NCBI GenBank assembly: GCA_014879655.1
Contig: JACSRS010000200.1
Coordinates: 1 to 64,000 of the forward strand
Direction: 5' to 3'
Source: Burkholderiaceae bacterium
GTDB lineage: Bacteria > Pseudomonadota > Gammaproteobacteria > Burkholderiales > Burkholderiaceae_C
DNA length: 64,000 nucleotides
In this document: piece by piece, positions 55,747 to 62,333 of the stretch
How the letters are laid out: every line of letters begins with the position of its first letter
How positions within the stretch are numbered: position 1 is the stretch's first letter
Notes under the pieces: generated by a model
The model's input: the letters and a program-made list of their open reading frames with translations, nothing else
Databases searched by the model: none
Told to the model about the DNA's origin: nothing
Program-made: the position numbers and the translations under genes

Positions 55747-56772
55747 TCAGCCGGGCAGGGCGCCCGGAAACAGTGGCCAGACCGATGAGTGGTCGACCGT
55801 CTCGTGGCGAAGCCGTTCACGGATCGACTGCCATACTGACGGGCTTTCCCAGGCGGACATGTGGCCGCCGTCCAGGCAGTCGAAGCCGCGTGCCAGCGCT
55901 TGCTGCTGCACGTGCAGGAAGTCAGCCGGCGCGGGCGTGATCGCCAGCACCGGAGGCCGGCGCGGGGCGTCGTCAAAGATCTCGGTGACCCGGTCCAGCA
56001 GCGCCTCGTCACGCCGGGCGTCGCCATCGAACAGCAGCGCCAGAAAGTGCCACTCGGGCGCCATCGATCGTTGCAGGCCTTGCGTCAGCGCGGTCCGGGC
56101 GACGGCGACCACACGGCAGGGCATGTCGTCGAGCATGAAGTCCACATAGTCGCTGGCACTGTCGCGGTCCGCCGGGCCGGCCGTGCGGCGGCTTTCGCGC
56201 GGAACGTCCTGCGTTTCAGACAGCCAGTGGGTCAAGTCGAACGCGCCCTGACCGCTGGCCGCGCAGACCACCACGCGGTAGTAGGCGTCGGCGGGCGTCG
56301 GCCCCTCGGGGCCGGGCAGGCGCATCGGCAGCACCAGTCGCCGGATCACGGTCGTTGGAGAGAGTTGCGTGCCGGCGCGAATCTGGTCGCGGATCGCCAG
56401 CACGCGCCGACCGAAGCCGTCGGCGCTTTCGGTGGCGGACGACAGCAGCATCGACCACGGTGTCATCAGCAGGCGCCGGCCGGTGCTGGCGTGCACCACG
56501 TGCGGCTCGTGGTGGCGCTTGTCGATGGCGATGCGGCCGAAAAGTTCCGCCACGCTGCGGTGCGGCCCTTCGGCCCAGTGCAAGAACCAGCCGCTCTGAT
56601 ACATCAGCGCTGCACGGATGTCCAGTTGCGGGTTGTGATGCAGCGCGCGATCCCGGATGGCTTCGAGCGTTGCATAGACGTTCTGCGTGTCGGTCGCCCG
56701 GCTGGCGCAGATCACCCGGTCAACTTCCTGCTGACCAGGCTTGGCGGGGTATGCGGCGCTGATTTGAGGCAT
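55747..56772 (-). CDS. BLUF-like domain protein lacking the photoactive residues
   Basis: A 341-residue protein. Residues 17-110 match a BLUF flavin-sensor pattern: a HN pair (46-47), AALMYQSGWFLHWAEGPHRSVAELFGRI, and a Trp in TPWSM (W106). The photoactive Tyr is replaced by Ser24 and the Gln by His65. The C-terminal part (about 155-335) is an unrecognised domain with alternating strands. It may be a sensor with another trigger. It is convergent with MmgE/PrpD. Confidence 0.75.
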   Translation of the reverse strand: MPQISAAYPAKPGQQEVDRVICASRATDTQNVYATLEAIRDRALHHNPQLDIRAALMYQSGWFLHWAEGPHRSVAELFGRIAIDKRHHEPHVVHASTGRRLLMTPWSMLLSSATESADGFGRRVLAIRDQIRAGTQLSPTTVIRRLVLPMRLPGPEGPTPADAYYRVVVCAASGQGAFDLTHWLSETQDVPRESRRTAGPADRDSASDYVDFMLDDMPCRVVAVARTALTQGLQRSMAPEWHFLALLFDGDARRDEALLDRVTEIFDDAPRRPPVLAITPAPADFLHVQQQALARGFDCLDGGHMSAWESPSVWQSIRERLRHETVDHSSVWPLFPGALPG

Positions 56773-58396: not shown

Positions 58397-59605
58397 ATGC
58401 CACTGCAATTTGCCGACCGCCTGAACAACGTCGAAACCTCAGCCATCCGGGAGCTGTTCAAGCTGCTGGGCAAACCCGGCATCATCAGCTTTGCCGGCGG
58501 CTTTCCGGACAGTGCGATGTTCGATGTCGACGGCATTCGCGAAGCCGCCAACGCCGCGCTGACCGAGGAGCCGGGCGGTGCGCTGCAGTACGGCGCCACC
58601 GAGGGCTACAACCCGCTGCGCGAGCAGCTCGCGGCGTTCATGACGGCCAAGGGCTGCACGGGCGTGGCCAGCGACAACCTGATCGTCACCACCGGCAGCC
58701 AGCAGGCGCTGGACCTGATCGGCAAGACGCTGATCTCGCCCGGTGACAAGGTCATCGTCGAAGGGCCGACCTTTCTGGCCACCATCCAGTGTTTCCGCCT
58801 CTATGGCGCGCAGCTGATCAGTGCGCCGATCGACGGCAACGGCGTGAAGACGGACGAGCTGGAACAGCTGATCGCCGAACACAAGCCGAAGTTCGTCTAC
58901 CTGATTCCCACCTTCGGCAACCCCAGCGGCGCGATGCTCAGCGCCGAGCGGCGCAAGAAGGTGCTGGAGATGGCGGTGCGGCACCAGACGCTGATCGTCG
59001 AGGACGACCCCTACGGCGACCTCTACTTCGGCCAGACCGCCGAAGACCGCCCACCGCCCAGCCTGCTGGCGATGAGCCCGCTGGTGCCCGGCAGCCGCGA
59101 GCTGCTGGCGCATTGCGGCTCGATGAGCAAGGTGCTCAGCCCGGGCCTGCGCGTGGGCTGGATGATCGGCCCGGCCGAACTGCTGGCCAAGGCAACGATG
59201 TGCAAGCAGTTCAGCGACGCCCATACCAGCACCTTTGCACAGGCAACTGCCGCCCAGTACCTGAAAGCCGGCCGCATGCCGGCCACGCTGGCGCGTGTGC
59301 GCAAGGTCTACGCCGAGCGTTGCCAGTTGATGTGCGACGCGCTGCGGATGGAGCTGGGCGACGCCATCGAGTTCGTGCAGCCGCAGGGTGGCCTGTTCGT
59401 CTGGGCACGGCTGACCGGCGCAGGCGGCAAGGTGGCCGACGGCGCCGAGCTGGCCCGACGGGCGATTGAAAAGGGCGTGGCCTTTGTTCCGGGTGCGCCG
59501 TTTTACTGCGCCAACCCCGATACCGCCGCGCTGCGCCTGAGCTTTGCGACGGTGGGCACCGACAAGATCATCGAAGGGGTGGGGCGGCTGGCGCAAGCCG
59601 TCTGA
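58397..59605 (+). CDS. PLP-dependent aminotransferase (class I/II)
   Basis: A 402-residue aminotransferase without a GntR-type N-terminal domain. The PLP lysine is in CGSMSKVLSPGLRVGW. Other features are FAGGFPDSAMF, the substrate-loop region LQYGATEGYNPLREQ, and VEDDPYGDLYF. The closest well-known relatives by pattern are 2-aminoadipate and LysN-type aminotransferases and valine-pyruvate enzymes. The substrate is not fixed. Confidence 0.93.
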   Translation: MPLQFADRLNNVETSAIRELFKLLGKPGIISFAGGFPDSAMFDVDGIREAANAALTEEPGGALQYGATEGYNPLREQLAAFMTAKGCTGVASDNLIVTTGSQQALDLIGKTLISPGDKVIVEGPTFLATIQCFRLYGAQLISAPIDGNGVKTDELEQLIAEHKPKFVYLIPTFGNPSGAMLSAERRKKVLEMAVRHQTLIVEDDPYGDLYFGQTAEDRPPPSLLAMSPLVPGSRELLAHCGSMSKVLSPGLRVGWMIGPAELLAKATMCKQFSDAHTSTFAQATAAQYLKAGRMPATLARVRKVYAERCQLMCDALRMELGDAIEFVQPQGGLFVWARLTGAGGKVADGAELARRAIEKGVAFVPGAPFYCANPDTAALRLSFATVGTDKIIEGVGRLAQAV

Positions 59606-59659
59606 CGTCCCCAGCGGGTCGGGCCCTAGCGGGCCGGCTTCAGGCGGCCAGGCGAGCGC

Positions 59660-61276
59660 TCAGTGCAGGGCGGCAGCCTTGCGGCTCGTTGCCCGCTTGC
59701 GGGGCGCCGCCGGGGCTGCGGGCTTTTTTGCCGACGCGGACCTGATCCGGCTTTTTGCAGCGGTAGCCGCAGTGGGCGCCGCCTTGGCGCCGCGCCGCGT
59801 CTTGACCGGTGCGCGCGCCGCTTCTTCGGCAGCGGCGGCTTCAGCCGCCGCTGCGGCCGCAACCTCGTTCGCGCGCGCCAGCAGCGTCTGGTGCTCAGCG
59901 AGCAGCAGGTCGCCCAGGTCGTTGATGTCGGGGACCGCCCTGCGGCAGGCGATCAGGCCGTAGTCGAGCCGCCCGGCGTAGCTTTGCACGGTGACGTTCA
60001 GCGCCATGCTGTGTGCCGGGATCGACACCGGGTAGTAGCTGACGACCTTGGCGCCTGCCAGGTACAGCGGCACCGGGCTGCCCGGCACGTTGGAGATCAG
60101 CACGTTGGCAAACGGCGGCAGCACATTGGCCAGGCGCGAGCGGCCGAACAGCGACGCCAGACCCGAGATCAGCCAGGGGGCGCCCAGCAGCGGAAAGTCG
60201 GTCGGGATGGCCGTTTTCACCCGGCCCATCATGGCCTTGTTCGCATCCGCCGCCTTGTGGATGGCCTGCAGGCGCTCGACCGGGTCTTTGATGTCGGTCG
60301 CCAGCGTCACGGTCATCATGCTGACCTGGTTGTTGGCCGAGGCGTCACCGGGCGCGCGCAGGCTGACGGGCACGGCGGCAATCAGTGATTTGGCCGGCAA
60401 CTCGTGGTGTTCGCGCAGGTAGCGGCGCAACGCACCGGCGGTTTCGCACATCACCACGTCGTTGAGCGAGCCACCGAGGGTTTTGCCGATGAACTTGGTT
60501 TCGGCCAGCGAAATGGTGCGGCCCGCAAAGCTGCGCTGGTTCGTGATGGCCACGTTGAGCACCGTGCGGGGCCCGAACAGCCGCACGCCCGTCGGCAGCG
60601 ACCAGTTGCGTTTGCCGTTCTCATCCTTTTGCGGCAGCGCCACATCGCGCACGGCCCGCGCCATCGCCGGCGCCGTCCTGATCAGCTGGACGATCTGCGA
60701 CAGCGTGTTGCGCGCAGCCGCACCGGCCAGTTCGGCCATGCCGAGCTGGTACTGGTTGCGGCGCACCTTGGCGCGCGGCGGCTTCACGGTGCGGCCGGCG
60801 GGCGTCAGGTCAAAAATCGCCTGCGCCACCGCAACGCCGGCCTGTCCGTCCATGCCCGCGTGATGGGCCTTGACGTAGACGGCCACCTGGCCGCTCTTGA
60901 GACCATCGATGACAAACAGTTCCCACAGCGGGCGGCTGCGGTCCAGCAGCGACGAATGCAGTCGCGCCACGTACTGCTGCAACTGGCGGTTGCTGCCCGG
61001 CTTGGGCAGGGAAATGTGGCGGATGTGGTAGTCGAGGTCGATGTCTTCGTCTTCTACCCAGACCGGATTGGACAGGTCGAAGGGCATCAGCGCGAGCTTG
61101 CGGGTGAACAGATCGGCCAGGTGCAGGCGGCTGGCCATGTGCGCCTTGACGTCTTCGAAATAGTCGCCGCTATAGCCAGCGGGCAGGTCCAGCACGTTGA
61201 GCGAGCCGACGTGCATCGGCATCTCTGGCGACTCGATGTGCAGGAAGGTGGCGTCAAGGCCGCTGAGATGTTTCAT
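59660..61276 (-). CDS. WS/DGAT acyltransferase with Lys/Ala-rich C-terminal tail
   Basis: A 538-residue acyltransferase of the wax ester synthase/diacylglycerol acyltransferase family. It opens MKHLSGLDATFLHIESPEMPMHVGSL and has the catalytic HHxxxDG in VKAHHAGMDGQ. The last 55 residues (about 485-538) are mostly Ala, Lys and Arg, like the histone-H1-like tails of PhaF or AlgP, and unusual for this family. It makes storage lipid esters at the membrane or granule surface. Confidence 0.92.
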   Translation of the reverse strand: MKHLSGLDATFLHIESPEMPMHVGSLNVLDLPAGYSGDYFEDVKAHMASRLHLADLFTRKLALMPFDLSNPVWVEDEDIDLDYHIRHISLPKPGSNRQLQQYVARLHSSLLDRSRPLWELFVIDGLKSGQVAVYVKAHHAGMDGQAGVAVAQAIFDLTPAGRTVKPPRAKVRRNQYQLGMAELAGAAARNTLSQIVQLIRTAPAMARAVRDVALPQKDENGKRNWSLPTGVRLFGPRTVLNVAITNQRSFAGRTISLAETKFIGKTLGGSLNDVVMCETAGALRRYLREHHELPAKSLIAAVPVSLRAPGDASANNQVSMMTVTLATDIKDPVERLQAIHKAADANKAMMGRVKTAIPTDFPLLGAPWLISGLASLFGRSRLANVLPPFANVLISNVPGSPVPLYLAGAKVVSYYPVSIPAHSMALNVTVQSYAGRLDYGLIACRRAVPDINDLGDLLLAEHQTLLARANEVAAAAAAEAAAAEEAARAPVKTRRGAKAAPTAATAAKSRIRSASAKKPAAPAAPRKRATSRKAAALH

Positions 61277-61492
61277 CGTGAAAGTCCTTCGATGGGGGCC
61301 GGGAGGAAAAGTTGCATTGTGACCGGCAGATCCGGTTCAGGCTGGAATGCGCGGGACAGCCGCTTGCGCCGTTCGGGCGGCCGGTTCGACAACCGGCCTG
61401 AAGTGCAACTGCAGGAGTCGGCCACGATCATCACCGTTCGGGACGTTCCGGCCCGCCGGCCAGCCGGGACCCCTGAGCGGCTTTCAATCGAA

Positions 61493-61556
61493 TTTCATGA
61501 ATTTTTCGGCACAACCCAGCGTCGTTCGGTCAGTTTTTGCTATCATTTATGGAGTG
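61493..61556 (+). repeat. dispersed repeat, copy 9 of 9
   Basis: Core CCAGCGTC at 61516-61523, then GTTCGGTCAGTTTTTGCTATC. It lies in the 336-base gap between the divergent acyltransferase and RraA-like genes. Nothing else in that gap is recognised. Confidence 0.72.
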
Positions 61557-61613
61557 TCCGGGATGCAGTAAGGCGGGTTTACGGGAACGGGTTTTCCAGC
61601 CGACAATCGGCCC

Positions 61614-62333
61614 ATGAACACCGAACCCCTTCCCCTTGATCCGCACATCGTTCAAACCCTGGCTGGCGTGACCACTGCCACGCTGACCACCGTGCTGCTG
61701 AAAAAAGGGCTGCGCAACGTCTGGTTGCGCGGTGCGTTTCCAGTGCGGGCCGGTCAGCCCCGGCTGGTGGGTCGGGCTTTCACGCTGCGCTTTGTGCCGG
61801 CGCGGGAAGATCTGGCGACGCCGGCGTCCTGGGCATCGCCCATTTCGACGCGCGCGGCCATCGAGGCCATGCCGGCCGGTTGCATCGCGGTGGTCGACGC
61901 CATGGGCGTGACCGACGCCGGCATCTTCGGCGACATCCTTTGTGCGCGCATGCGCAAGCGCGAGGTGGCGGCGCTGGTGACCGACGGCGTGGTGCGCGAC
62001 CTGGCCGGCGTGCTGGGCACGGGCCTGCCGGTTTGGTGCAGTGGCACGGCGGCACCGCCGTCGGTGGCCGGCCTGACCTTTGTCGGCTGGCAGGAACCGG
62101 TGGCCTGCGGCGGCGTTGCGGTCTTTCCGAACGATGTGGTGGTCGCGGACGACGACGGTGCGGTGCTGATTCCTGCTGCGCTGCTCGATGACGTGGTGGC
62201 CGAAGCCGTCGAGAAGGAGCGGCTGGAAGCCTGGATCATGCAGGAGGTCGAGCGCGGTGCCGAGCTGCCCGGCCTGTACCCGCCGAACGCGCAGAACAAG
62301 GCGCGCTACGAAGCGTCTAAAGCGCCGCGCTGA
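61614..62333 (+). CDS. RraA-like / HMG-aldolase-family protein
   Basis: A 239-residue RraA-fold protein. It has VVDAMGVTDAGIFGDILCARMRKREVAALVTDGVVRDLAGVLGTGLPVW, matching the G-x-G-D and RD pattern of the family. Relatives are 4-hydroxy-4-methyl-2-oxoglutarate aldolases and oxaloacetate decarboxylases as well as RNase E inhibitors. The longer C-terminus and a metabolic SDR neighbour favour a catabolic enzyme role. Confidence 0.88.
   Translation: MNTEPLPLDPHIVQTLAGVTTATLTTVLLKKGLRNVWLRGAFPVRAGQPRLVGRAFTLRFVPAREDLATPASWASPISTRAAIEAMPAGCIAVVDAMGVTDAGIFGDILCARMRKREVAALVTDGVVRDLAGVLGTGLPVWCSGTAAPPSVAGLTFVGWQEPVACGGVAVFPNDVVVADDDGAVLIPAALLDDVVAEAVEKERLEAWIMQEVERGAELPGLYPPNAQNKARYEASKAPR

Follow-up and report, generated by a model that had tools for sequence, protein, structure and literature searches.

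A WS/DGAT gene with a basic C-terminus

The window, a stretch of 64,000 nucleotides from a Burkholderiaceae bacterium (contig JACSRS010000200.1), carries a WS/DGAT acyltransferase gene close to its end. Its open reading frame, strand and coordinates (Table 1) were correctly given in the initial annotation, and the start codon is backed by the conserved N-terminus of relatives, which mostly reads M-K/N-H-L-S-G. The protein scored 448.1 bits against TIGR02946, for which the curated cut-off is 309.95, and positions 1–452 of the 453 in the model were covered. Two solved relatives of the AtfA type, 7nxg (1.8e-70) and 6chj (1e-69), align to residues 2–458 and 4–458, respectively. HHxxxDG is the catalytic motif of WS/DGAT enzymes; in an alignment of 43 sequences, H138, H139, D143 and G144 were invariant. 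By family the protein is a WS/DGAT acyltransferase (wax ester synthase/diacylglycerol acyltransferase), predicted to move acyl groups from acyl-CoA onto a fatty alcohol or diacylglycerol. A search of positions 59550–61640 found no sigma-70-like promoter, and terminator-like matches in the same region were equal in number to those in shuffled sequences.

Table 1. Coordinates of the features described in the text. Positions refer to the window unless a locus (L) is named; residue numbers are those of the WS/DGAT protein.
Feature	Position	Strand	Basis
WS/DGAT acyltransferase gene, 538 aa	59660..61276	minus	ORF, Pfam, TIGR02946, solved relatives
Stop codon of WS/DGAT gene	59660-59662	minus	
Start codon of WS/DGAT gene	61274-61276	minus	
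Catalytic domain WS_DGAT_cat, residues 4-275	60452..61267	minus	Pfam, 8.6e-69
WS_DGAT_C domain, residues 316-458	59903..60331	minus	Pfam, 1e-29
HHAGMDG (HHxxxDG) motif, residues 138-144	60845..60865	minus	Sequence and alignment
Predicted C-terminal helix, residues 451-488	59813..59926	minus	AlphaFold2 model
Basic, disordered, histone-like tail, residues 489-538	59663..59812	minus	Composition and AlphaFold2 model
BLUF blue-light sensor protein	55750-56772		PF04940, 3.4e-13
Gene A (Variovorax)	L070:6843-7400		
Orthologues of gene A	L063-L065, L067-L069, L071-L073		
Own-genome homologue of gene A	L109:1312-2046		
Thioalkalivibrio sp. XN8, 717-aa protein	L102:2836-6446		

An AlphaFold2 model built with 43 sequences was mostly confident in the core (mean pLDDT 87.2). 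In this model the C-terminal helix does not stop with the domain but continues across an Ala/Glu-rich stretch, and the residues that follow it are without predicted secondary structure, pLDDT falling below 50 from residue 510. The last 50 residues consist of A18, K7, R7, P5, T4, S4 and five single residues; they carry a net charge of +14 with neither Asp nor Glu, and Lys and Arg are equal in number. The tail had been described as nearly all Ala, Lys and Arg with repeated AAK/APRK-like units. A basic, A/K/R-rich tail is indeed present, although the first wording is slightly strong for a share of 32/50 residues (64%, or 74% with Pro; AKRP 0.74). The units proved loose and irregular: AKKP and APRK are each present a single time, and no regular tandem repeat was found. 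Of the two rows returned by Tandem Repeats Finder, one (15 bp x1.9) lies outside the gene and the other (11 bp x1.9) within it. By reading, PAKKA or AKKA repeats were not found in the window tail, where only AKKPAAP and APRKR are present; AKKA-like runs occur in the tails of some relatives (L063, L070).

No phasin domain (PF05597, TIGR01837 or PF09361) was detected in the enzyme, the two WS/DGAT families being the only Pfam matches at 0.001. Searching NCBIfam at 0.1 gave TIGR02946 and, for the tail, a weak match to a valine-tRNA ligase model (0.0023). Over 51 representative WS/DGAT tails, the aromatic residues F, W and Y together account for 0.1% and the sum of I, L, M, V, F, W and Y for 13.0%, mostly Val, with Pro and Ala high.

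Conservation and recurrence of the tail

Relatives were collected from 60 genomes around that of the window, 26 of which gave a match; a single scan of GTDB contigs contributed 70 loci. Nine of the 102 rows, cut or duplicate, were dropped and the query was set apart. With a tail defined as at least 30 aa bearing a charge of +6 or more, 56 of the 57 distinct relatives at a core identity of at least 60% carry one, as do 11 of 15 at 44–60% and 4 of 20 below 44%. The initial annotation would have given up its proposal if the tail were absent from close homologues and the protein failed to bind DNA; as to the first half of this, the close homologues were found to have the tail almost without exception. 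Above 44% core identity the exceptions are L087 (64% identity), which is tail-less with 15 aa after the core, L094 (75 aa, charge −5), L096 (31 aa, +4), L013 (10 aa) and L014 (15 aa); L013, L014 and L016 all fall within 10–15 aa. The two paralogues in the window's own genome (L002 and L003) have 13 and 14 aa beyond the core and no basic tail.

At 60% core identity or more the tails range from 39 to 171 aa, L087 apart. Beyond close relatives they cannot be aligned by eye, and both letters and length drift; as far as the sequences tell, composition and charge are what persists. As nearly every close relative has retained such a tail while its letters changed, the tail is probably functional.

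The distribution of the trait was mapped onto a tree of 116 cores, built by a quick method that gave long-branch warnings, with the label set at a tail of at least 30 aa and a charge of at least 8 (65 rows). To explain the trait, this tree requires a minimum of 15 changes, gains and losses undistinguished, of which 12 are forced by starred branches; shuffled labels average 38. A phylum-wide set comprised 30 loci, the best matches at one locus per genome, from 51 genomes with a match. Excluding the query and L139, which has a short core, a tail was found in 5 of the 28 WS/DGATs among these best 30 of 51. Four of the five (L119, L122, L126 and L135) lie outside the main tailed clade and L137 lies inside it. 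Leaving the query aside, 20 of 29 loci, again among the best 30 of the 51 genomes, have a tail of 25 aa or less.

Tests against chance

The bases of the tail DNA were shuffled within each codon position, which preserves base make-up. The whole 76-residue tail of the window enzyme, counted from residue 463, has a charge of +12, compared with −1.1 ± 2.7 in these shuffles. For 70 unique tails, each 30 aa or longer and with a core identity no lower than 44%, a set that by definition leaves tail-less relatives outside, the mean charge was +12.7 versus −0.8 after shuffling; z exceeded 2 in 67/70, which are not 67 independent tests, as the tails are related by descent. Drift in GC-rich DNA was rejected as the origin of the tail, the charge being far above that of the codon-position shuffles.

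A sample of 235 kb from the own genome, made up of the window and ten stretches on contigs already met and hence non-random, yielded 199 genes by home-made calls. A single one, the WS/DGAT gene itself, passes a charge of at least 8 together with an AKRP fraction of at least 0.6 in its last 50 residues. The idea that A/K/R tails are common across the genome was therefore rejected for this 199-gene sample. The same thresholds were applied to the window plus the fetched loci (from L034 on, without N; 73 sources with a call), where 501 genes were called in 745 kb, again by home-made calls, some WS/DGAT genes being lost to antisense ORFs. Here 37 of the 61 called WS/DGAT genes pass. Only 5 of the 440 other genes do so, four of them a neighbour in Variovorax (gene A, below) and one the gene upstream of the Thioalkalivibrio WS/DGAT; since the sample was drawn around WS/DGAT genes, this company of tailed genes is partly built in.

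Short motifs within the tails

An unguided pattern count over the 51 representative tails ranked two short motifs first for their lengths. Among 4-letter patterns this was hydrophobic-basic-hydrophobic-hydrophobic, typically LKLV, found in 12/51 tails (2.25 expected, shuffle maximum 8), and among 5-letter patterns PA followed by three basic residues, found in 10/51 (1.11 expected, shuffle maximum 5). A wider LKLV-like pattern occurs in 21/51 tails, and in 17 of these 21 it sits 12–32 residues before the end. A first count of LKLV, 21 of 70 tails against 1.6 expected, was post hoc, the pattern having been noticed by eye beforehand. The motif recurs in the otherwise unalignable basic tails of L034, L037, L041, L042, L088, L093 and others, and this pattern of sequences hints at a docking peptide besides charge. 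In the window tail, SRIRSASA stands where the nearest relative, L034, has SRLKLVSA, so that the LKLV motif seems to have decayed there. The patatin of L108 has a similar string, LHLVST, close to its N-terminus; the string was not seen in the patatin relatives that were read.

Genomic context

The window WS/DGAT gene stands alone between an aminotransferase gene and an RraA-like gene, neither of them evidently linked to storage, and a Pfam scan of nine window genes revealed no granule genes beside it. Near it lies a gene for a BLUF blue-light sensor protein with about 230 further residues that have no Pfam match at 1e-5.

In Variovorax a fixed order was found: in 10 of the 13 loci so titled, the tailed WS/DGAT gene is followed on the same strand by two genes, here called A and B, and by an alpha/beta hydrolase gene. 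Genes A and B were not seen in the fetched stretch of the remaining loci, L042, L087 and L099. The hydrolase adjoins the WS/DGAT gene or lies within a few kb of it at 32 loci, the ten of Variovorax included; L006 and L058 are the same gene. Gene B encodes a protein that matches the phasin family PF05597 over the last 42–44 model-matched residues (5.8e-10 and 1.4e-8 for the two members tested), and its N-terminal end is basic in all nine cases with a plausible readable start.

The product of gene A has 165–186 aa and, by reading, a basic C-terminal tail. A fold prediction from 11 sequences gave three long helices and a disordered tail (mean pLDDT 70.7), with no match in the PDB at E ≤ 0.001. 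Two members were searched against Pfam and NCBIfam, that of L070 at 0.1 and the own-genome homologue at 0.01, and neither gave a match. With no family or fold match, the label ‘phasin-like’ for gene A rests on its position, helices and tail. We regard the family as a candidate new inclusion-surface protein.

In Thioalkalivibrio sp. XN8 the WS/DGAT has a tail of 30 aa with a charge of +9. Just upstream of this gene another is found, coding for a 717-aa protein with an A/K/R tail of its own. In NCBIfam this protein matches part of PigE (5.5e-53) and the acyl-ACP reductase TIGR04058 (1.3e-19), in both cases far under the cut-off.

Elsewhere in the own genome we found two PhaC-domain genes, two Phasin_2 genes and a 28% homologue of gene A with a longer basic tail. 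A further protein, of the PF05597/TIGR01837 type (3.2e-49; TIGR01837 above cut-off), bears a long A/K/R tail; its gene adjoins genes for a patatin and for a fatty-acyl-reductase-type SDR (PF07993; PRK07201), which presumably resembles Marinobacter Maqu_2507. The Variovorax context and this tailed phasin tie the tail trait to storage inclusions.

Comparison with known tethers

The WS/DGAT structures 7nxg and 6chj are like the window enzyme in catalytic fold, HHxxxDG motif and both Pfam domains, but neither shows such a tail, as the deposited chains have 463 and 455 aa and in both cases the match stops at residue 442 of the chain. The tail finds its counterparts in proteins of other kinds. MLDS and HBHA/HbhA are non-enzymatic proteins. 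MLDS is described as residing on Rhodococcus lipid droplets and binding DNA through PAKKA motifs, an ability lost on changing Lys to Glu (PMC5504291), and the C-terminal domain of mycobacterial HbhA is reported to be necessary and sufficient for DNA binding (PMC10665949). These lipid-inclusion proteins share with the window enzyme a Lys/Ala-rich C-terminus; they differ in their PAKKA repeats, whereas the window tail has no PAKKA run and as much Arg as Lys. PhaF of Pseudomonas is a phasin of the PHA granule surface, built from a granule-binding helix, a leucine zipper and eight AAKP-like repeats, and is reported to bind DNA and to position granules through its tail (PMC5658603). Here the likeness lies in a polycationic A/K/P-rich C-terminus on an inclusion-surface protein, provided the window enzyme is located as we infer; unlike PhaF, however, the carrier is a synthase with no phasin domain and no regular repeat. 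In their published descriptions, the tails of PhaF, MLDS and HbhA bind DNA without sequence preference (PMC5658603, PMC5504291, PMC10665949). PhaM of Ralstonia eutropha is described as binding PHB, DNA and the synthase PhaC1 and as attaching PHB granules to the nucleoid (PMC3556143). It is a separate adaptor, whereas in the window a synthase of another family bears the tether-like part on its own chain.

Judged by titles and the beginnings of abstracts, searches of the open-licence PMC literature brought up no WS/DGAT with a lysine-rich or histone-like tail. For Bacteroidota, PHA genes and a putative phasin have been reported on WS/DGAT scaffolds, as well as a C-terminal domain in the WS/DGATs, SCP-2 in two of four sequences (PMC10351704); none of these features is the basic tail seen here. 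A known type of tail and a known enzyme are thus joined in a new combination, with a tether-like tail on a synthase and not on a phasin.

A possible role in tethering inclusions to the nucleoid

The initial annotation had suggested that the enzyme might tie lipid or PHA inclusions to the nucleoid. That reading emerges strengthened from our analysis, with DNA binding putative. According to this model, the enzyme would make neutral lipid at the surface of the growing inclusion, and the disordered polycation behind its C-terminal helix, about 50 residues long, would grip a polyanion irrespective of sequence, most likely chromosomal DNA. Each synthase molecule on an inclusion would then also tie that inclusion to the nucleoid, so that inclusions would be spaced and divided among daughter cells. 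PhaF and PhaM serve PHA granules in this way, and the binding of Rhodococcus lipid droplets to DNA by MLDS is much alike. The inclusion may consist of wax ester or TAG or be associated with PHB, the own genome having two PhaC-domain genes as well. We consider it quite plausible, stopping just short of probable, that the tail grips DNA in this manner and aids the spacing and segregation of inclusions. Against it stand the isolated position of the window gene, the relatives whose tail is missing, short or not basic enough, and the three Variovorax loci where genes A and B were not seen. The own genome moreover has a tailed phasin of the PhaF family already, which may make another tether redundant.

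WS/DGATs act at the membrane and at the inclusion surface, and the tail follows directly on a long predicted helix. Both points would suit a tail that serves an otherwise soluble enzyme as an electrostatic anchor on anionic phospholipids, either of the inner membrane, the site of neutral-lipid formation, or of the inclusion monolayer, with DNA uninvolved. Anionic-lipid binding explains the same tail sequence as DNA binding does, and the lysine-rich repeat region of HBHA is reported to be required for phosphoinositide binding and inclusion formation (PMC6176652). The same source, however, describes charge alone as insufficient for PIP2 binding by HBHA (PMC6176652). Moreover, WS/DGATs with tails of 9–25 aa are common in the sets examined, hence the fold needs no such anchor, and the near absence of aromatics, the low content of bulky hydrophobics and the richness in Pro and Ala, as in DNA-binding tails, lean mildly towards DNA. 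We therefore consider a lipid anchor unlikely, if still a serious competitor.

The enrichment of the LKLV-like motif and of PA with three basic residues, needless for charge alone, might point instead to another partner: polyphosphate, RNA, an acidic protein or the tail itself in a condensate, the LKLV-like and PARKR-like motifs being docking sites for granule proteins. No such partner is known, the window tail is without the LKLV-like motif that its nearest relative has, and shared ancestry of the tails means that shuffle counts overstate significance; this explanation appears distinctly improbable. That the tail should be functionless low-complexity sequence drifting in GC-rich DNA is hardly credible. 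Its sequence and length do vary widely, and the close relative L087 is tail-less; but its charge is far above codon-position shuffles, and nearly every member of the orthologous group shows the trait, which is rare in the other sampled genes of the own genome and clustered on the tree.

Returning to the nucleoid tether, a wider proposal may be made, which we hold to be possible rather than likely. In Burkholderiales and some other Proteobacteria, the synthase would carry the tether and seed inclusions on the chromosome, and the basic A/K/R tails on synthase, phasins and the Thioalkalivibrio reductase-like protein would be a common address, acquired convergently, by which the wax/TAG machinery and its product are brought together on the nucleoid. 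The placement and sharing-out of neutral-lipid inclusions are known in few bacterial systems, and in those named above the tether is a separate protein. If the proposal is true, the making and the positioning of inclusions would be coupled in one synthase with its tether built in, and a simple sequence rule would be at hand for spotting inclusion proteins in this group.

Patatin neighbourhoods and tail-less synthases

The surroundings of the tailed phasin in the own genome recur in Burkholderiales as a neighbourhood (L108 and L140–L155) of a fatty-acyl-reductase-type SDR, a TIGR01837-type phasin, by reading with an A/K-rich tail in most, and a patatin. In the 16 loci with a strong patatin match, out of 30 fetched, the phasin adjoins the patatin in all 16 and the reductase does so in 12. 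A WS/DGAT paralogue lies at most 3 kb from the patatin in 5 of the 15 other genomes of this strong set, and in four of the five it has no basic tail (14–48 aa, charge −1 to +2). Since these patatin-near WS/DGATs are mostly tail-less beside a tailed phasin, a tail-less synthase with a tailed phasin and a tailed synthase look like two solutions of one task. Against a clean split, both parts are combined in Variovorax and in the fifth paralogue, L181, which belongs to the normally tail-less group (24% identity to the core of the window enzyme) and has a tail of 103 aa with a charge of +8 and an ARKKPAR run.
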